From NCBI RefSeq assembly GCF_003612015.1, contig NZ_RARB01000003.1, positions 394,023 through 458,022 on the forward strand: 64,000 nucleotides of DNA, written 5' to 3'. A model generated the notes under the pieces. The model was not told the origin of the DNA. It was given only the letters and a program-made list of their open reading frames with translations, and made no database searches. The stretch's first letter is position 1, and the number at the start of each line of letters is the position of its first letter. Shown in pieces: positions 28,326 to 35,857 of the stretch. The DNA is from Pantoea piersonii. Its GTDB lineage: Bacteria; Pseudomonadota; Gammaproteobacteria; Enterobacterales; Enterobacteriaceae. Position numbers and translations under genes: made by a program.

Positions 28326-30236
28326 TTACAGCCGCCCCAGACACTCAATTGCCACCGCCTTGAATTCGGCGAAATCTTTGCTGTCGCGCAGCCGGGCTAC
28401 AGCCCTTTCGCGTAAAAAAGTCACGAACAGGTCGTAGATCGCCATCGCCTCTTCATACTCGCTTTTGCTGATCGCCAGCAGAAAGATCACCGAGGCGGTA
28501 TCCTCTCCCCACGCAATGCCCTGCGGCGCCAGCACCGTGTAAACCACGGTCTTCTTCGCCAGCAGGCCGAGCGAGTGCGGCAGCGCAATGCCTTCGCCCA
28601 GCATGGTGCTGACGATCGCCTCACGCTCCTCGACCGAGGGATAAAAGCTCGCGTCGACAAAGCCTTCCGCCTCCAGCCGATCGCACAGCTGACGAAACAG
28701 CTGTGACTGCGTCATCGGCTTATCGACAATCAGGAAGTGCTGCGCGTCGAAGAATTTCTCCAGCATATAGGGCCGGGTGCGATCCACCAGCACCAGCTTG
28801 CCGATCTGCTCCAGCTGAAAGCCGGTGGGGAACGGCGATATCACCACTACCGGCTTATCCTTCTCGCTCAGGCGCGTGGTGGAGATAACGAAATCTTCGT
28901 CGATGCGCGTGCGCTCCTCATATTCGCGCTGCGACAGGCGCCCCGTGACCTGCAGCTGCGGATACTTGCGCAGCAGCATCGCCTCAATCATCCGCAGCGT
29001 CGAGTTGCCGCTGTCGCACACCAGCAGCACCTGCGGGTGGCGCTGGTAGCCGACGTCGTAATGCCGCTCCAGCCCGACGCCGATATGCAGCACCAGAAAG
29101 CCGATTTCGTTTTCGCTGATAACGTAAGGCGTATATTTGCCCCAGCTGGAGACCGCCGACAGCGTGACGTCATAGGCCATAGGGTAGTGCTGTTTAATAT
29201 TGCCCAGCAGCGGGTTTGGGATATGGATCTGGTAACGCACGCGGGTGATCATCGTCTTAATATGCGTTAACAGATCGGCGCGCAGCTGCTCGTCGCCCTG
29301 CAGGTTGTAGTTATAGTGGGTATTAATATAGCTGAGCAGATAGTCCACCAGCGCGTCGGCGTCATCGGCGTTGATGGCGCTCGGCGCGACCTCCTGCATC
29401 TGGCGCGCCGCGATATTGACGCGCAGCCACCCCTCTTCCGCCGGCGATACCGGCTTGCCCACCAGCGGCCGCAGCAGATTAATCAGCTCGTGTGCCGCCT
29501 CGCGCACGTCGAGACCGACATCCTCCGCGCCGGGATCGCTGAGCGGGTAACCTTCGCTGATGCGCCGCACCGCCACGGCGCAGTAAAGGCGCAGATAGCG
29601 CTCTCCCTCATCGCTGAGGCGAACGTTGTGGCGCGACAGGCACTGCTGCAGCAGTGGGCGCAGCGTCTCCAGAATATTGCTGTGCAGCGCTTCGATAGTG
29701 ATAAGCGGGCTGTCGGCCTGTTCCTGATCGATCTGCCACAGCAGATCGGTTAAGCAGGTACGGATCGCCACTTCGCTGCCGAACAGCTTCATGCCGTAAT
29801 GGGGTTTGCTTTCGATATTCAGGTGATAGCGCGCCAGCCATTCACGCACCTCGGTCATATCGTTTTGCAGCGTGGCGCGGCTGACGAACCACTCATCCGC
29901 CAGATCCTCCAGCTTGAGCGACCAGGCGGCGGTCAGAAAGCGCGTCAGCATATAGCGCACCCGCTCGGCGGAAGTGCGCGGCACGCGCAGCGGCGAGCGT
30001 TTTTGCAGCTCCAGCCGCTGGAAACGCTGCGCATCCTCGATTTTTAGCTGATACCCCTCGCCGCGGCTGAGCACGAACTGCGCGCCATACTCCTCCAGCA
30101 GCGCGTTGAGCGCGCTGATATCGGCGCGTACGGTGCGCGTTGAAACGGCGAAGCGCCGCGCCAGCTCATCCTGAGGCAGCGTTTCGTTTTGCAGGGCGTC
30201 AAACAGCTGTGCAAGGCGTTGATTAGGAAATCTCAA
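28326..30236 (-). CDS. PRD/EIIB/EIIA-containing transcriptional activator (BglG/MtlR type)
   Basis: 636 residues. HTH11/Mga-type DNA-binding segments span about 1-170. PRD1 is about 175-275 and PRD2 about 285-395, with H325 and H384 in the usual phosphorylatable places. An EIIB-like domain (about 402-490) has C407 in VCDSGNSTLRM, and an EIIA-type domain (about 495-635) has H554 in GIALPHS. In PRD1 the second histidine seems replaced (RLYCAVAVRRI). The architecture means control by PTS phosphorylation. It lies 130 bases after dgaF on the same strand and is the probable regulator of the cassette. Confidence 0.88.
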   Translation of the reverse strand: MRFPNQRLAQLFDALQNETLPQDELARRFAVSTRTVRADISALNALLEEYGAQFVLSRGEGYQLKIEDAQRFQRLELQKRSPLRVPRTSAERVRYMLTRFLTAAWSLKLEDLADEWFVSRATLQNDMTEVREWLARYHLNIESKPHYGMKLFGSEVAIRTCLTDLLWQIDQEQADSPLITIEALHSNILETLRPLLQQCLSRHNVRLSDEGERYLRLYCAVAVRRISEGYPLSDPGAEDVGLDVREAAHELINLLRPLVGKPVSPAEEGWLRVNIAARQMQEVAPSAINADDADALVDYLLSYINTHYNYNLQGDEQLRADLLTHIKTMITRVRYQIHIPNPLLGNIKQHYPMAYDVTLSAVSSWGKYTPYVISENEIGFLVLHIGVGLERHYDVGYQRHPQVLLVCDSGNSTLRMIEAMLLRKYPQLQVTGRLSQREYEERTRIDEDFVISTTRLSEKDKPVVVISPFPTGFQLEQIGKLVLVDRTRPYMLEKFFDAQHFLIVDKPMTQSQLFRQLCDRLEAEGFVDASFYPSVEEREAIVSTMLGEGIALPHSLGLLAKKTVVYTVLAPQGIAWGEDTASVIFLLAISKSEYEEAMAIYDLFVTFLRERAVARLRDSKDFAEFKAVAIECLGRL

Positions 30237-30366
30237 AGCGGTCTACCTGTTACGGCGCTGGCATGCATTCAGCGGCATCATGTCGAAAAATAGCAGCCTA
30301 AAGCGAACGGCGCGTTACGTCCAGGCAAGCGCCGACGCCCTGTGAAGCGCGCCGGCGTGGTGGTCG

Positions 30367-31107
30367 TTACGGCAGCAGTTTTTTGCAAATCGCCAGAAGC
30401 TGGCGCACATCTTCCACCCGCGTATCGCCGCTGGCGGGATCGATAATGGAGCTGTAGACGTGCGGGATGATTTTACTGACGCCTGCCTCCAGCGCGATCG
30501 TCAGGATCGCTTCGACGTTATCGAGATCGATGCCGCCGGTCGGCTCCAGCCAGAAGTCATGCGCCGCGCACGCCTGGGCGACGGCGCGATACTCGTCGAC
30601 CGCCTTCAGCCTGCCCATCGGGAAATATTTCACCGAGCTGCCGCCCATATCCTTCAGCAGCGCGATGGCGCTGTCGATCGGCACCAGGGCGTCGCTGCCC
30701 TGCGAGCTTAGCGGGCCGGTAGAGATTTTTACCAGACCCGGCGTGCCGGTCGGCGAAATCAGCCCGTTAACCACGGTTTGTGACTGACCGAGCAGCGCGC
30801 GGCTGGTGGCGACGCCGGTGAATACCTGGTTAACGTGCTGCGGCTGCAGCACGGCGGAAATTTCGCTCACCATTTTTGACTGGTTCGGGTCGCCCGCGCC
30901 AAGTCCGACCGAGAGCGCGTTATCGATCAGCGCGGCATATTCGCGCATATCGGCGATAGCCGCCTCGTTGCTGCTGTAGTTTTTTGACAGCACCCCTACC
31001 AGCACATGTCCTTCCGCCGCTTCCCAGATGGCGCGCGCGTTCGCTTTCGATCCGGCCAGCACGTTAAGGCACAGACGATCCTGATAGAAATTTGGGGTCA
31101 GCTTCAT
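30367..31107 (-). CDS. dgaF: 2-dehydro-3-deoxy-phosphogluconate aldolase, DgaF type
   Basis: 246 residues of the KDGP aldolase family (Salmonella DgaF-like). It would split 2-keto-3-deoxygluconate-6-phosphate into pyruvate and glyceraldehyde-3-phosphate. Visible features are VKISTGPLSS, with a probable Schiff-base lysine, KYFPMGRLK and EPTGGIDLDNV, forming a TIM-barrel phosphate site. Its start overlaps the dgaE stop by four bases (ATGA). The symbol is by homology; the cassette differs from the Salmonella dga operon in its transporter and regulator. Confidence 0.88.
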   Translation of the reverse strand: MKLTPNFYQDRLCLNVLAGSKANARAIWEAAEGHVLVGVLSKNYSSNEAAIADMREYAALIDNALSVGLGAGDPNQSKMVSEISAVLQPQHVNQVFTGVATSRALLGQSQTVVNGLISPTGTPGLVKISTGPLSSQGSDALVPIDSAIALLKDMGGSSVKYFPMGRLKAVDEYRAVAQACAAHDFWLEPTGGIDLDNVEAILTIALEAGVSKIIPHVYSSIIDPASGDTRVEDVRQLLAICKKLLP

Positions 31108-32225
31108 GCGATTTTTTCTCCGTTCAACAGCGCCTGGATCGCGGTGAAAATGGTGTGCAGCTGCTCAGCGCTGACGCTGCGGACATCCGCCTCGATAATG
31201 CCTTCATTGGCCTTGTAGCCGCGAAAATAGATAGCGGTCTCGCCGCTCTTCAGCGCCTGTACGATATCGCCGGTACGCTGACCGATAGCCGCCTCGTCGA
31301 ATTTGATCTCGGCACGGGCGATATCGCGCCCTGCCGCGTCCCAGACTACGCGGGCGCTAACGCCGTGCAGCTGGTTGAGATGGTCGATAAAGGGCGTCAT
31401 CTTCTCTACCATCTGCGCGCCGCTCACCTTTTCCAGCCGTAAATAGTTTTCAATCGCCTGCGTCAGGCCAAGGATCCCCTCCTTGCCCACCTTCATCGCC
31501 CGGCCGATACCGCTGCTCTGCCGCTTCACCCATTCAACATACTGCTGTCGGCCGATTACCAGCCCGCTGGTCGGCCCTTCAATCGCCTTCGCGCCGCTGT
31601 AGATCACCAGATCGGCACCGTACTGGTAGTAGCACTGCAGATCCTCTTCGGCGGCCGCATCGACGATCAGCGGGACGCCGTGCTTGCGCGCCACCACCGC
31701 CGCCTGCTCGACGCTTAAATGACTTTTTTGCACGCAGTGGTGAGATTTAACGTAGAGGATCGCAGCGGTTTGCTGCGTGATCGCCGCCGCCAGCTGCTCA
31801 GGTGAACACTCGTTGCTGTAGCCCGCTTCCACCAGACGGCCGCCGCCCAGCGCCACCATGCTGCCGACCGGCGCGCCAAAATTGACGTTATGGCCTTTCG
31901 GCACCACGATGTCGTGCGGCACCTCGAGCGGCGCGGCGTGCAGGTTATCCAGCAGCCAGTCACTCTCTTTCACGATGACCGCTGCGACGCACTGCGCAAT
32001 GCCCGCCGAGGCGCAGGAGACCACTACCGCGTTTTCGACATTCAGCAGCCGGGCGATATACGCGCCGGTCTTGTTGACCAGATCTTTCATTTCAAAATAG
32101 TGGCTGAGGCCGGTCTGCACGGTATCGACCACCTCAGCAGAGGGCGTAGAGACGCCGAGGATCGTCATGCGGCCCGAGGCGTTGATAACCGGCTTCAGGC
32201 CATATTTTTCATAGATCGAAGACAT
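31104..32225 (-). CDS. dgaE: D-glucosaminate-6-phosphate ammonia-lyase, DgaE type (PLP enzyme)
   Basis: 373 residues, fold-type I PLP enzyme of the SelA-like group. The PLP lysine is K213 in YSGAKAIEGPTSG, and D189 (LIVDAAAEED) would pair with the pyridine nitrogen. DgaE removes water and ammonia from D-glucosaminate-6-phosphate to give 2-keto-3-deoxygluconate-6-phosphate, the substrate of DgaF. It overlaps the amidohydrolase gene by 17 bases and dgaF by four, so the three are translationally coupled. The actual amino sugar acid is not proven here. Confidence 0.88.
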   Translation of the reverse strand: MSSIYEKYGLKPVINASGRMTILGVSTPSAEVVDTVQTGLSHYFEMKDLVNKTGAYIARLLNVENAVVVSCASAGIAQCVAAVIVKESDWLLDNLHAAPLEVPHDIVVPKGHNVNFGAPVGSMVALGGGRLVEAGYSNECSPEQLAAAITQQTAAILYVKSHHCVQKSHLSVEQAAVVARKHGVPLIVDAAAEEDLQCYYQYGADLVIYSGAKAIEGPTSGLVIGRQQYVEWVKRQSSGIGRAMKVGKEGILGLTQAIENYLRLEKVSGAQMVEKMTPFIDHLNQLHGVSARVVWDAAGRDIARAEIKFDEAAIGQRTGDIVQALKSGETAIYFRGYKANEGIIEADVRSVSAEQLHTIFTAIQALLNGEKIA

Positions 32226-33342
32226 TGGCTTTCCCTTCTTCTGTCAGGAACCACTCGCCCGCCACCACGGCGGCCAGCGGCGTAAGATGTTTCTCCCCGG
32301 TGACCTGTTCGCCTTCGGAATCAACAAACAGGCGGGGTGCTTCTGTGACGCTGAAAATGGTGAGATCGGCGTCGAAACCCGCCTCCAGACGCCCCTTTCG
32401 CGTCAGATGCAGCCCATCCGCCGCTTTCCAGGTAACGCAGTCGATCACCTGCGGCAGCGTCATACCGACGCTGAAAAATTTCGACATGACGTGCGCCAGG
32501 TTATGCACCGGGCCGTTGAGGCGGTTGCGGCAGTAGATATCCGAGCTGATGGTGTCAGGCAGAATGCCCTGCGCGATGGCGACGCGCGCCACCTCGAAGC
32601 TGAAGCTGGCGCTGCCGTGGCCGACGTCCATCTTCACGCCGCGCGCGATAGCCTTTTGCACCGACGCCTTGAGTTCGCCCTGCGGCGTCAGTACGCGGTT
32701 GGGCTTGCCGTTAAAGCAGTGGGTGATGATATCGCCTGCGGTGAGCCGGTCGGCGATCTGCGCCAGATCCGGCGGGTTGTTGCCGATATGCACCATAAGC
32801 GGCAGATCCCCGACCCGCTTCTGGATCGCTTTGGCTTCGATCAGCGGCTGAATGCCGTTCTCGCCGACCACGCTGCTGCTCATGCGCGCCTTCAGGCCGA
32901 CGATAAAGTCAGGCAGCCGCTCGACGGCTTTCTGCACCGCATCGCCGTCGATCTGTCGCATATCCGCCAGTTCGTTCTGCGTCACGATGCCGGTGCGCGC
33001 GATATTGATCAGCGCGTAAACCTGCGTACTGGCCGCCCGCGTAATGGCATAGAAATCATCAACATGGTCTGCGCCGGTGCTGCCTGCGTCGATCACCGTG
33101 GTAACGCCGGTGGCGACGCCGATGGCGTCCGCCTCGTCATGATAGATCGGCGATTTGGGGTAGCAGTGCACATGAGAATCGATCCAGCCTGCGCTGACGT
33201 AATAGCGCCCGGCCAGATCGCGTTCGCTTTTTGCTTCGCCCTGCACGCTGTCGGCAACGACGGCGATTTTCCCGTCCTGAAGAGCGATATCCACCCGCCG
33301 CTCATCCGCCAGCCTTGCGCGACGAAGAATCAGATCGAACAT
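32209..33342 (-). CDS. Amidohydrolase/deacetylase-family metallohydrolase
   Basis: 377 residues of the amidohydrolase superfamily. A binuclear metal centre can be read: H57-x-H59 (DSHVH), carbamylated-type K151 (GLKARM), H185, H208 and D268 (SSDIYCRN). Its nearest functional classes are dihydroorotase-like and N-acyl amino-acid or amino-sugar deacylases. In this operon it would deacylate or open a lactam of the amino sugar acid before DgaE acts; that is inferred from position only. Preceded by a GC-rich intercistronic hairpin. Confidence 0.85.
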   Translation of the reverse strand: MFDLILRRARLADERRVDIALQDGKIAVVADSVQGEAKSERDLAGRYYVSAGWIDSHVHCYPKSPIYHDEADAIGVATGVTTVIDAGSTGADHVDDFYAITRAASTQVYALINIARTGIVTQNELADMRQIDGDAVQKAVERLPDFIVGLKARMSSSVVGENGIQPLIEAKAIQKRVGDLPLMVHIGNNPPDLAQIADRLTAGDIITHCFNGKPNRVLTPQGELKASVQKAIARGVKMDVGHGSASFSFEVARVAIAQGILPDTISSDIYCRNRLNGPVHNLAHVMSKFFSVGMTLPQVIDCVTWKAADGLHLTRKGRLEAGFDADLTIFSVTEAPRLFVDSEGEQVTGEKHLTPLAAVVAGEWFLTEEGKANVFDL

Positions 33343-33356
33343 AGCACCTCCTTAAC

Positions 33357-33382
33357 GCGGCGGCCCGCTGACGAGCCGCCGC
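33357..33382 (-). other. Intercistronic hairpin between DUF4310 and the amidohydrolase gene
   Basis: GCGGCGGC (33357-33364) pairs with GCCGCCGC (33375-33382) with a ten-base loop. No U-run follows. It could stabilise the upstream (transporter) part of the mRNA or dampen read-through into the enzyme genes. Confidence 0.5.
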
Positions 33383-33387
33383 CGGTT

Positions 33388-34029
33388 TCAGATAGCGATC
33401 GGGAAGATCGCGCCGAGGATCATGGCGCCCAGGATCGCGCCGCCGGTGATCGGCTTGTTCCACAGATAGAACAGCAGCGCGCCGAGCAGCGAGCCAAGCC
33501 CGATTGGAATCGAAGCCGCCATCGCGGAAAGGATGATCAGCGGCCCCAGAAAGCGGCCGGAGGCGTTGCCTGCGCCCATCATGACGTCCGCACCGTAGGT
33601 AGAGTCGCTCTGGTTAATGGTGAACTTGCGCGCCAGGATGATGATGTAGCCGATAGCCAGGCCAATCACCAGGCCCGTCGCCAGCGAGGCGGCGAAATTC
33701 GCTACCGGGAAGACGATGCCCGCCCCGAGCAGCAGCGCCGGAACGCCCAGGCCAACGCCGGTCTGGATGGCGCCGCCGATGTCGAGGATGCCCACCAGCG
33801 AGCCTTCGATGATGCGCGCAAAGAGAAAACTCGCGCCGAAGGCCGCTACCGCGCCATAGACGCCGGTTTCCATGCCGGCGCGCAGCATAGAAACAAACGC
33901 CACTTCATTAAACGCGCCGATGCCGTAGAGGTAGTACATATGCGTACCGGCGAATACGCCCGCCGAGAGCAGGCCGACGAAGATCGGGAAAGACCAGTCG
34001 GCGTACCAGAAGCCTTTATTTTCAGTCAT
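33388..34029 (-). CDS. DUF4310-family membrane protein (possible transporter subunit)
   Basis: 213 residues, strongly hydrophobic with about five to six predicted membrane helices and many Gly/Ala-rich stretches (GGAIQTGVGLGVPALLLGAGIVFP). Belongs to DUF4310, known from a conserved gene block first noted in Enterococcus faecalis EF_0829-EF_0839 and some Proteobacteria. No biochemical role is established. Lying beside the DUF4311 membrane protein (ten-base gap), the pair probably forms an integral complex. Confidence 0.85.
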   Translation of the reverse strand: MTENKGFWYADWSFPIFVGLLSAGVFAGTHMYYLYGIGAFNEVAFVSMLRAGMETGVYGAVAAFGASFLFARIIEGSLVGILDIGGAIQTGVGLGVPALLLGAGIVFPVANFAASLATGLVIGLAIGYIIILARKFTINQSDSTYGADVMMGAGNASGRFLGPLIILSAMAASIPIGLGSLLGALLFYLWNKPITGGAILGAMILGAIFPIAI

Positions 34030-34039
34030 ATCGTTAGCC

Positions 34040-34816
34040 TTACTTGCCGCTCAGAGAGTTGTGGATCATGTCGAGCCAGCCGGGAATGCCTAACTGGAAC
34101 GACTGCAACAGCTTCATATCGAAACCGCGGAAGAAGCCGCTCAGCACGAACAGCAGCACGATCGCCACCATCATTACTTTGGTGACTTTGTTCCAGCCGC
34201 TCTCTTCGACGCCTTTGCCGATCAGAATGCCAAGCACCAGCCCCGGTACGGCGTTGCCCATGATCAGCTGCGCCAGGCCGCCGAAAATCGTCGCCCAGAA
34301 GCCCGATTTTTTTCCGGCGTCGATCGCCGCCAGCCAGAAGATCACCGGCATGACGGTGTTAACCAGCAGGTTAGCCGCCGGCACCAGCACTTTAACCGCG
34401 GTCACCTGCAGCGCGGCGGGGACGGCCGACGCGGTGGAGTTCAGGAAGGCCACGACGATCATGCCGATAATGCCGCAGGCGACGGCCATCTTTTTCGGGT
34501 CATGCAGGGTTTCGGCCAGGTTGCGGTTTTTAACCATCAGCGCGGCCGCGCCCCAGTTGGGAATGATGCGGTGGTCGACGTCCTGAGTGAAGGAGCCTGC
34601 TGCGACGGAAGATGCCCAGGCATTGAAGAAAAAGCCGAGACCAAAGGAGAAATGCGAGGCGGGATCGCCCTCGCAGGAGTTGAGCTCGCCCAGCGTACGG
34701 AACGCGCCCATGCCCTGCGACGTCGGCGCGTGGAACATGCGCGCCGCACCGGCGCCAACGCCCACACCGACCAGCCCCCCAATGATCAACGACTTAAACA
34801 AAATAATTAAAAACAT
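34040..34816 (-). CDS. DUF4311-family membrane protein (possible transporter subunit)
   Basis: 258 residues, polytopic, with a hydrophobic N-terminal helix (FLIILFKSLIIGGLVGVGVG) and about six further segments. Conserved-looking polar stretches are RMFHAPTSQGMGAFRTLGELNSCEGDP and QDVDHRIIPNWGAA. DUF4311 occurs only together with DUF4310, DUF4312 and the SFCGS protein, which argues for one machine. No similarity to EIIC or EIID PTS proteins is evident by eye. Confidence 0.85.
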   Translation of the reverse strand: MFLIILFKSLIIGGLVGVGVGAGAARMFHAPTSQGMGAFRTLGELNSCEGDPASHFSFGLGFFFNAWASSVAAGSFTQDVDHRIIPNWGAAALMVKNRNLAETLHDPKKMAVACGIIGMIVVAFLNSTASAVPAALQVTAVKVLVPAANLLVNTVMPVIFWLAAIDAGKKSGFWATIFGGLAQLIMGNAVPGLVLGILIGKGVEESGWNKVTKVMMVAIVLLFVLSGFFRGFDMKLLQSFQLGIPGWLDMIHNSLSGK

Positions 34817-34844
34817 GTTTTTTTACCTTTGTTGTCGTCTGTTT

Positions 34845-35144
34845 TTACGGTGCCGCCGTGAATGTCACCTGCCCGGTATCAATCACGGTGACGCTGACGG
34901 AAATCTCCAGCTCAACGCTGTAGTTCCGCCGCTGGCGCGCCAGAAAGAAGAACAAAAACTTCTCCGTTCTGACGCTCTCCTGCGCGCGCAGCACCCGAAC
35001 ATCCAGGGGTTCAATGCGCAGCAGAATTTTTTGCGTCGCGCGCAGAACCTGGTTCTGCACGTGACTCAGGGCATCGGCAAACGCCTTCTCTTTGCTGTCG
35101 CCTTTGCCCTGCACCGTCACCTGAGTAACGTATTGTTCTTTCAT
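34845..35144 (-). CDS. DUF4312-family small cytosolic protein
   Basis: 99 residues, soluble, alternating strands and one helix, with H28 (ALSHVQNQV) its only histidine. Family DUF4312, function unknown. Starts two bases after the SFCGS gene stop, so translation is coupled. Its size and a single histidine make an EIIA-like phosphocarrier conceivable, but this is inference only. Confidence 0.83.
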   Translation of the reverse strand: MKEQYVTQVTVQGKGDSKEKAFADALSHVQNQVLRATQKILLRIEPLDVRVLRAQESVRTEKFLFFFLARQRRNYSVELEISVSVTVIDTGQVTFTAAP

Positions 35145-35146
35145 AA

Positions 35147-35503
35147 TCAGCTGCCGTGCTTCTTGTTCCAGGCCTGCACCAGCCGCTCGCCTAACTCTTC
35201 TTTGTCCATAAAGCCGAAGCCAAGCACGTTGGCCCCTTCGTTGATGGCGGTGACGCCTTCGTCAACGGAGCGCATACCGTGGCGCGCTTTGTAGCCATAT
35301 TTGTTCTGGGCAGTGATGGCGCCCGCGCCGCCGCTGCCGCAAAAGGAGATACCGAAGTCGGCGTTTTCCGCCTTCATCACGTCGCCCAGCTTCATGTCCG
35401 CTGCGACGCCCGGTACGACGACGGCGCGCCCGCCCGCTTTTTCTACGCCTGCGGCCACTTTCTGTCCTTTACCTAAACGATCGCCAATCACTACGGTCAC
35501 CAT
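35147..35503 (-). CDS. Glycine-rich SFCGS-family protein
   Basis: 118 residues from ATG 35503, with AGAGGAA seven bases upstream; the frame extends seven codons further but lacks a ribosome site there. Named for the motif SFCGSGGAGA (C55), a Cys followed by a glycine-rich loop on an alpha/beta fold, plus H75. The loop resembles nucleotide or phosphate-binding loops, and a Cys at its head recalls EIIB proteins, though the position is internal. Function unknown. Confidence 0.83.
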   Translation of the reverse strand: MVTVVIGDRLGKGQKVAAGVEKAGGRAVVVPGVAADMKLGDVMKAENADFGISFCGSGGAGAITAQNKYGYKARHGMRSVDEGVTAINEGANVLGFGFMDKEELGERLVQAWNKKHGS

Positions 35504-35524
35504 GGTTATTTCCTCTTTATACAA

Positions 35525-35857
35525 TTAGTTAGAACGAGCCACTTCTATATGGACGGAGAGAAGCCAGGCCTCTTCGCGCGGCAGATTGCCGAACAGATCG
35601 ACGATCTGCTGCGCCAGCTGCATGGTTTCCGGCGAAATATCCTCAAACAGCTCCTCTTCCACCTCCGGAAGCGGTTCGCCAGTCAGCGAGCGCTGCGCCA
35701 TGGCGCGGACGTGCGAAGCCAGCATCTGCTGCTGCACCGCGTTCGGCTCTATATCGTGTCGGGCATAGATCGCCGCGATTTGCGCCATGACCTTGTCGGC
35801 CAGGGCCTGAATCTCTTCCGGCGTTGCCTGCCGTACCGAAGCTCCGTTGCTGCTCAC
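35525..35857 (-). CDS. Stand-alone PRD-domain protein
   Basis: 110 residues from GTG 35857, chosen because AGGAG lies seven bases upstream and the longer open frame is not family-like. It is a single PTS-regulation domain with the two typical histidines, H49 (LASHVRAMAQR) and H103 (LLSVHIEVA), and no DNA- or RNA-binding part. First gene of the cassette. It may be a phosphorylatable partner or decoy for the large regulator. Confidence 0.82.
   Translation of the reverse strand: MSSNGASVRQATPEEIQALADKVMAQIAAIYARHDIEPNAVQQQMLASHVRAMAQRSLTGEPLPEVEEELFEDISPETMQLAQQIVDLFGNLPREEAWLLSVHIEVARSN

Follow-up and report, generated by a model that had tools for sequence, protein, structure and literature searches.

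A conserved nine-gene cassette of Pantoea piersonii, proposed to serve the uptake and breakdown of an N-acylated 2-amino sugar acid

The question of what is done by the protein families SFCGS, DUF4312, DUF4311 and DUF4310 is raised by a cassette of nine co-directional genes on the minus strand (28326..35857) of a 64,000-nucleotide stretch of Pantoea piersonii DNA, which was analysed as a whole and is called the window below. By the inspection of open reading frames (ORFs), the genes were found in the order of small PRD protein, SFCGS protein, DUF4312, DUF4311, DUF4310, amidohydrolase, DgaE-type lyase, DgaF-type aldolase and PRD/EIIA regulator, and the four from SFCGS to DUF4310, already catalogued as a unit, are referred to as the DUF block. 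On balance, the cassette is probably an operon for the catabolism of a 2-amino-2-deoxy aldonic acid in N-acylated form (e.g. N-acetyl-D-glucosaminate). In the proposed pathway, DUF4311 and DUF4310 would make up a permease in the membrane, served by the soluble proteins SFCGS and DUF4312 and perhaps also by the small PRD protein, and the amidohydrolase would take off the acyl group. Ammonia would then be released by the DgaE-type lyase, with 2-keto-3-deoxygluconate, probably in its 6-phosphate form, as the product, and 2-keto-3-deoxy-6-phosphogluconate would be cleaved by the DgaF-type aldolase into pyruvate and glyceraldehyde 3-phosphate, while the regulator would control the operon by the phosphorylation state of the phosphotransferase system (PTS). 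If the DUF block is a permease, it would represent a kind of transporter for which no relative has been recognised and which occurs in bacteria from guts, plants and insects.

A full-text literature search, with most subscription papers outside its coverage, yielded no paper on the function of the DUF block. In excerpts of the respective sources, EF0838 and EF0839 appear in transposon sequencing and urine-expression work on Enterococcus faecalis (PMC7701990, PMC2912369), and dgaEF is among the duplicated genes of E. faecalis (PMC7396535).

An earlier note, made from the sequence alone, had listed nine minus-strand genes in the order given above, and all of the ORFs were found in place with their families matched by profile. 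The starts were refined, with the ATG at 35503 as the more likely start of the SFCGS gene and the GTG at 35857 as that of the PRD gene; the SFCGS residue numbers used here (Cys62, Asn95) refer to the longer ORF, which begins at 35524. The profile check suggested in that note gave eight matches on NCBIfam, seven proteins lying above the curated cut-offs of the EF-named models (TIGR03577-TIGR03583) and the lyase above that of TIGR01437, so that the cassette is a member of the EF_0829-EF_0839 gene set, with the same families and order; the regulator had no NCBIfam model above cut-off in the profile scan and was matched by Pfam domains. The gene coupling by overlaps or short gaps was likewise borne out, as the DgaE and DgaF genes share 4 bases, the amidohydrolase and DgaE genes share 17 bases, and 130 bases lie between the aldolase gene and the regulator gene.

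The full nine-gene order was kept in 77 of 80 related loci, which were the best matches of 493 confirmed places and belong to enterics close to the window's genome; the other three comprise two loci truncated by contig ends and one without a detected DUF4312 ORF. Because the same order recurs in these 77 loci, the conservation of the cassette exceeds chance. Of 11 additional loci in genera elsewhere in the same order, 10 had the nine genes and one was truncated. The protein searches gave 120 matches each at most, from no more than 7999 scored candidates. The cassette is real and widespread, and the conservation of the DUF block as a unit in E. faecalis and some Proteobacteria, as claimed earlier, agrees with these counts and with the EF-named models; no relative was found among the viral contigs searched. 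Unlike the window, the E. faecalis cassette also holds MupG, a kinase, a lactose/cellobiose-type IIC and, at the EF0835 position, a small protein. The E. faecalis regulator showed no EIIA domain in the scan, whereas the window's regulator has one. In the E. faecalis record L012, the DgaF aldolase was seen as two ORF pieces between the lyase and the kinase.

As judged from the protein families, the enzyme half, composed of a deacylase, a lyase and an aldolase, would be a variant form of the D-glucosaminate (Dga) pathway of Salmonella. The cog3964 enzymes studied by Ornelas in 2013 reportedly cleave acyl groups adjoining D-configured carbons, an activity that would suit N-acetyl-D-glucosaminate. 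By alignment with the Salmonella enzyme (7lc0), Lys213, His162 and His163 of the window lyase match catalytic residues. The Salmonella dga operon, which serves D-glucosaminate use, carries a mannose-type PTS IIABCD at the place of the DUF block. His162 and His163 correspond to the histidine pair discussed for the Salmonella lyase in an excerpt of PMC9529869. According to excerpts of the papers on Salmonella dgaABCDEF (PMC4987338, PMC9529869), that operon shares with the window a DgaE-type lyase and a DgaF-type aldolase in one operon as well as a PRD-type PTS-controlled regulation; unlike the window, it has the sigma-54 activator DgaR, and these excerpts give no deacylase. No mannose-type PTS gene was found among the window's nine genes.

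The neighbours of related enzymes were compared in a plasmid collection, where 12 records carry a DgaF relative and 6 carry DUF4311, the latter being the same 6 that carry SFCGS. Six of the DgaF records lack DUF4311, and the surroundings were examined in five of them, all but a second Lactobacillus paracasei plasmid. DgaE and DgaF are accompanied on the L. paracasei plasmid by a mannose-type PTS (IIA, IIB, IIC and IID; deacylase and kinase not annotated), in Clostridioides difficile by a lactose/cellobiose-type PTS, MupG, a deacylase and a sugar kinase, in Priestia by a deacylase, a kinase and a gluconate:H+ symporter, and in Niallia (unannotated, assigned by similarity) by a IIC of the lactose/cellobiose-type PTS, MupG, a deacylase and a kinase; the Alicyclobacillus record holds only a distant aldolase in a different context. 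Both the DUF cassette and a mannose-type PTS Dga operon, the latter without a detected deacylase or kinase, are held by two enteric genomes. The deacylase thus accompanies the DUF, MupG and symporter types, and none was found in three mannose-PTS cassettes. In the 80 DUF loci, searched with PTS and gluconate-symporter queries only, the sole other transporter was one weak IIB match near the edge of L059. Because the relatives without the DUF block carry known transporters at its place, the DUF block appears to stand for the permease and is best read as an uptake unit. Lyase relatives occur in 194 plasmid records, mostly rhizobial (33-37% identity in the rows shown), and the rhizobial surroundings lie outside this comparison. 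A regulon table in an excerpt of PMC9019972 gives a DgaE-family gene of L. plantarum together with genes for a PTS IIC and a DUF871 protein, whose locus tags lie close by.

The form in which the acid would be delivered was approached through kinase genes. With four kinase queries (expectation value (E) 1e-6), no kinase was found in the fetched flanks of the 80 DUF loci, and none was found with two kinase queries in 10 loci of other genera. Kinases do occur where the acid should arrive unphosphorylated (symporter) or be freed by MupG, and this pattern, together with the lack of kinase matches in the 80 loci, suggests that the acid is delivered by the DUF block in phosphorylated form, like by a mannose-type PTS. 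Two near-identical Bartonella plasmids (one event) carry ptsP at the cassette end, and the scanned product is an HPr-EI fusion; the gene is a circumstantial sign of phosphoryl transfer through the DUF block, and it could serve the PRD/EIIA regulator only.

Several points weigh against the proposed pathway. The window lyase reached 365 bits on the strict D-glucosaminate-6-phosphate lyase model NF047797 (cut-off 600) and failed it, and the lyases of the same cassette in E. faecalis (369 bits) and Bartonella (359 bits) likewise fell below 600; the aldolase passes its strict model (NF047796), and the window lyase passes the broad DgaE-family model with catalytic residues in place. In a lyase tree of ten rows, the DUF-linked lyases were not monophyletic, nor were the mannose-PTS-linked ones; with no single clade for either type, the partners appear to have been exchanged. 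The exchange pattern comes from a few independent cassettes without phylogenetic correction, and E. faecalis combines the DUF block with the MupG type and a kinase. No transporter family was recognised in DUF4311 by Pfam profiles, its AlphaFold2 model (predicted local distance difference test (pLDDT) 84, predicted template modelling score (pTM) 0.71) gave no clear fold match to the solved PDB structures, and the DUF4310 model (pLDDT 49) was unusable. In addition, a KdgK orthologue encoded elsewhere was found in 21 of 25 DUF4310 genomes, including that of the window (26 DUF4310 genomes minus G572, which has a 31-position fragment match only), and would permit an unphosphorylated route.

In such a route, which is possible though rather unlikely, the DUF block would be an ordinary secondary transporter, the PTS parts would be regulatory only, the acid would lose its acyl group and its ammonia in unphosphorylated form, and 2-keto-3-deoxygluconate would be phosphorylated by the KdgK from elsewhere. 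Besides the KdgK count and the lyase score below the strict cut-off, it is favoured by the kinase genes that accompany the cassette enzymes in Priestia, C. difficile, Niallia and E. faecalis and by the precedent of the Ong pathway, through which the marine bacterium Pseudoalteromonas uses N-acetylglucosaminate (PMC9537276). As described in an excerpt of that paper, the Ong pathway shares deacylation, deamination and the product 2-keto-3-deoxygluconate 6-phosphate with the pathway proposed here, and differs in having a D-aminoacylase-like OngB, another pyridoxal phosphate (PLP) enzyme as OngC, the SSS-family transporter OngIT and a kinase acting after deamination (PMC9537276). The empty kinase search in the 80 DUF loci and the HPr-EI gene in the Bartonella cassette argue against the unphosphorylated route, as does the lack of a KdgK match at E 1e-20 in three genomes that were rated 100% complete and carry the full cassette; the fourth of the 25 genomes without the match was rated 75% complete. 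A separate kinase search was empty in 6 of 6 genomes, was run without a positive control and is not counted as evidence.

A bolder reading, which is regarded as improbable, takes the small PRD protein, SFCGS, DUF4312, DUF4311 and DUF4310 as an unrecognised family of phosphorylating permeases, in which a phosphoryl group would pass from HPr to a PRD histidine, then to the SFCGS cysteine and to the substrate crossing DUF4311/DUF4310, with YhfY, YhfU and YhfT of the Escherichia coli yhf operon as a second branch. In the small PRD protein, His49 and His103 are kept in all 84 sequences compared, one of them from the window, and are of the sort that becomes phosphorylated in PRDs; the score on PF00874 itself was 21.2 bits (cut-off 23). 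No EII family was matched by SFCGS, DUF4312, DUF4311 or DUF4310 at E up to 10, a range in which most matches above about 0.1 are dropped by the HMMER filters. The regulator had been described as a PRD/EIIB/EIIA protein: its PRD and EIIA_2 domains lie above cut-off, an EIIB domain is not named by Pfam, and an EIIB-like stretch is our reading from the conserved Cys407, which together with His325 and His384 was kept in 79 of 79 aligned regulators.

SFCGS is a probable, not a proven, relative of the RpiB/LacAB isomerases. It was matched to the ribose-5-phosphate isomerase model TIGR02133 (E 1.7e-4, below cut-off), to PF02502 LacAB_rpiB (18.9 bits, below the gathering cut-off of 24.7; E 0.0015) and to DUF2620 (E 0.0053, below cut-off), the last two being the sole Pfam families listed for it beyond its own. 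Cys62, invariant in 12 of 12 sequences, is aligned to the cysteine that is catalytic in RpiB. At the position of the RpiB residue His99, SFCGS has Asn95; the PDB RpiB chain in the alignment also has Asn there, while the E. coli gene has His. For the shuffle control, a custom SFCGS profile was run on 2000 shuffles each of RpiB, YhfU and SFCGS, of which the top 14 rows were seen. E. coli RpiB (12.2 bits) was beaten by 1 of 2000 RpiB shuffles and the best YhfU (12.5 bits) by 0 of 2000 YhfU shuffles, and of the SFCGS-sequence shuffles 2 of 2000 beat RpiB (12.6 and 12.3 bits) and 1 of 2000 beat the best YhfU. The kinship is graded as probable because this control supports it moderately. SFCGS thus agrees with RpiB/LacAB in where the catalytic cysteine lies and in the motif around it, and differs from them by a score below the family cut-off, by Asn for His99 and by being encoded beside membrane partners.

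This likeness and the retained cysteine would also suit a soluble pathway isomerase, in which case SFCGS (with DUF4312) would isomerise an aldose or ketose amino sugar before the lyase and only DUF4311/DUF4310 would transport. Such a role is quite improbable, as the change of RpiB His99 to Asn95 speaks against it and the annotated non-DUF cassettes with the same lyase and aldolase (L. paracasei, C. difficile and Priestia) list no isomerase of this kind. A role of the DUF block as a sensor in the membrane or as another regulatory complex, as the seemingly regulatory small PRD protein and the lack of a recognised transporter fold might suggest, is very unlikely, since the block sits where relatives carry permeases and the PTS and gluconate-symporter queries gave nothing else in the 80 loci, save the weak IIB match.

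A recurring module of PRD, RpiB-like and membrane proteins is suggested by the E. coli operon yhfSTUVWXYZ, which is annotated as putative or uncharacterized and which encodes a small-PRD-like YhfY, a YhfU weakly similar to SFCGS, the membrane protein YhfT and PLP enzymes. YhfY matched the small-PRD model at 1.6e-6, below the curated cut-off (profile comparison probability 86%), and retains the first PRD histidine, not the second; the profile comparison of YhfU (DUF2620) with SFCGS was weak (P 0.008, probability 5%). From these sequence comparisons, YhfU and YhfY are likely counterparts of SFCGS and the small PRD protein, respectively. The order PRD-DUF2620-YhfT in Cetobacterium parallels the order PRD-SFCGS-DUF4312-DUF4311-DUF4310. 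The yhf operon differs in its phosphotriesterase (PTE)-like Php, phosphopentomutase-like YhfW and YhfX enzymes. YhfT was tried as a homologue of DUF4311 (P 0.23, probability 0.3%) and of DUF4310 (P 0.006, probability 6%), and neither profile comparison was significant. Together with the transporter exchange, the yhf parallel yields a testable proposal for four families without a known function and for a portion of an E. coli K-12 operon that is itself uncharacterised. A lone YhfT homologue was seen at L135:7000-8355 (genome G027), with YhfU, YhfY and other yhf genes not detected in the 15 kb fetched.

As regards the substrate, the earlier note had proposed the uptake, deacylation and breakdown of an N-acyl or lactam form of a 2-amino sugar acid, and this reading is supported in part. 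The N-acyl form fits the enzyme families, the Priestia symporter and the lack of a deacylase in the three mannose-PTS cassettes, and the lactam form found no support. In 29 of the 80 loci, among them Mixta, and in the Klebsiella record L014 (PF10282), a 6-phosphogluconolactonase-like gene lies between those for the aldolase and the regulator; no such gene is in the window. In the hosts that carry it, this gene hints that the substrate may occur as a lactone. Chitin oxidised by lytic polysaccharide monooxygenases was rejected as a general substrate, since LPMO_10 was found in 9 of 26 DUF4310 genomes and in 45 of 191 others; seven of the nine belong to a single genus, and LPMO_10 is absent from the genome of the window. 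Upstream of the cassettes, one simple sigma-54 promoter pattern was found in 0 of 81 regions, scans for promoters and terminators scored no higher than shuffled sequence, and a CRP-like palindrome with at most one mismatch was found in 19 of 81 regions, the window's not among them (no control run).

Table 1. Coordinates and assignment of the nine cassette genes in the window
Feature	Position	Strand	Evidence
Small PRD protein (EF_0829/AHA_3910 family), GTG start	35525..35857	-	TIGR03582 124.9 bits (cut-off 69.35)
Glycine-rich SFCGS protein, probable RpiB/LacAB relative	35147..35503	-	TIGR03577 222.8 bits; start as in homologues
DUF4312 small protein	34845..35144	-	TIGR03578 129.7 bits; PF14189
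DUF4311 membrane protein, proposed permease subunit	34040..34816	-	TIGR03580 507 bits
DUF4310 membrane protein, proposed second permease subunit	33388..34029	-	TIGR03579 390 bits
cog3964/EF_0837-type amidohydrolase, proposed N-deacylase	32209..33342	-	TIGR03583 554 bits (cut-off 432); relatives 8wzy, 2ics, 2ogj
DgaE-family PLP ammonia-lyase with K213, H162, H163	31104..32225	-	TIGR01437 588 bits (cut-off 385); aligned with Salmonella enzyme 7lc0
DgaF-type 2-keto-3-deoxy-6-phosphogluconate (KDGP) aldolase	30367..31107	-	TIGR03581 393 bits; NF047796 378 bits (cut-off 300); solved relatives including 3m0z
Helix-turn-helix (HTH)/Mga/PRD/EIIA regulator, PTS-phosphorylated type	28326..30236	-	Pfam HTH_11, Mga, PRD, EIIA_2 above cut-off

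The DUF4311 proteins of the window and of E. faecalis are 67% identical. DUF4311 matches were split into two or three pieces in the same-genus genomes G003, G005 and G017, which may reflect cassette decay or assembly errors, and the E. coli control genome gave a weak signal with the DUF4311 model, below cut-off and at a location that was not found. Six of the 80 loci (L075, L088, L089, L090, L091 and L093) and L183 hold an HPr-like gene next to the cassette or close by, on the regulator side, with PF00381 matched in the scan of L183; this gene resembles ptsO of the rpoN cluster, and probably marks only the insertion site.

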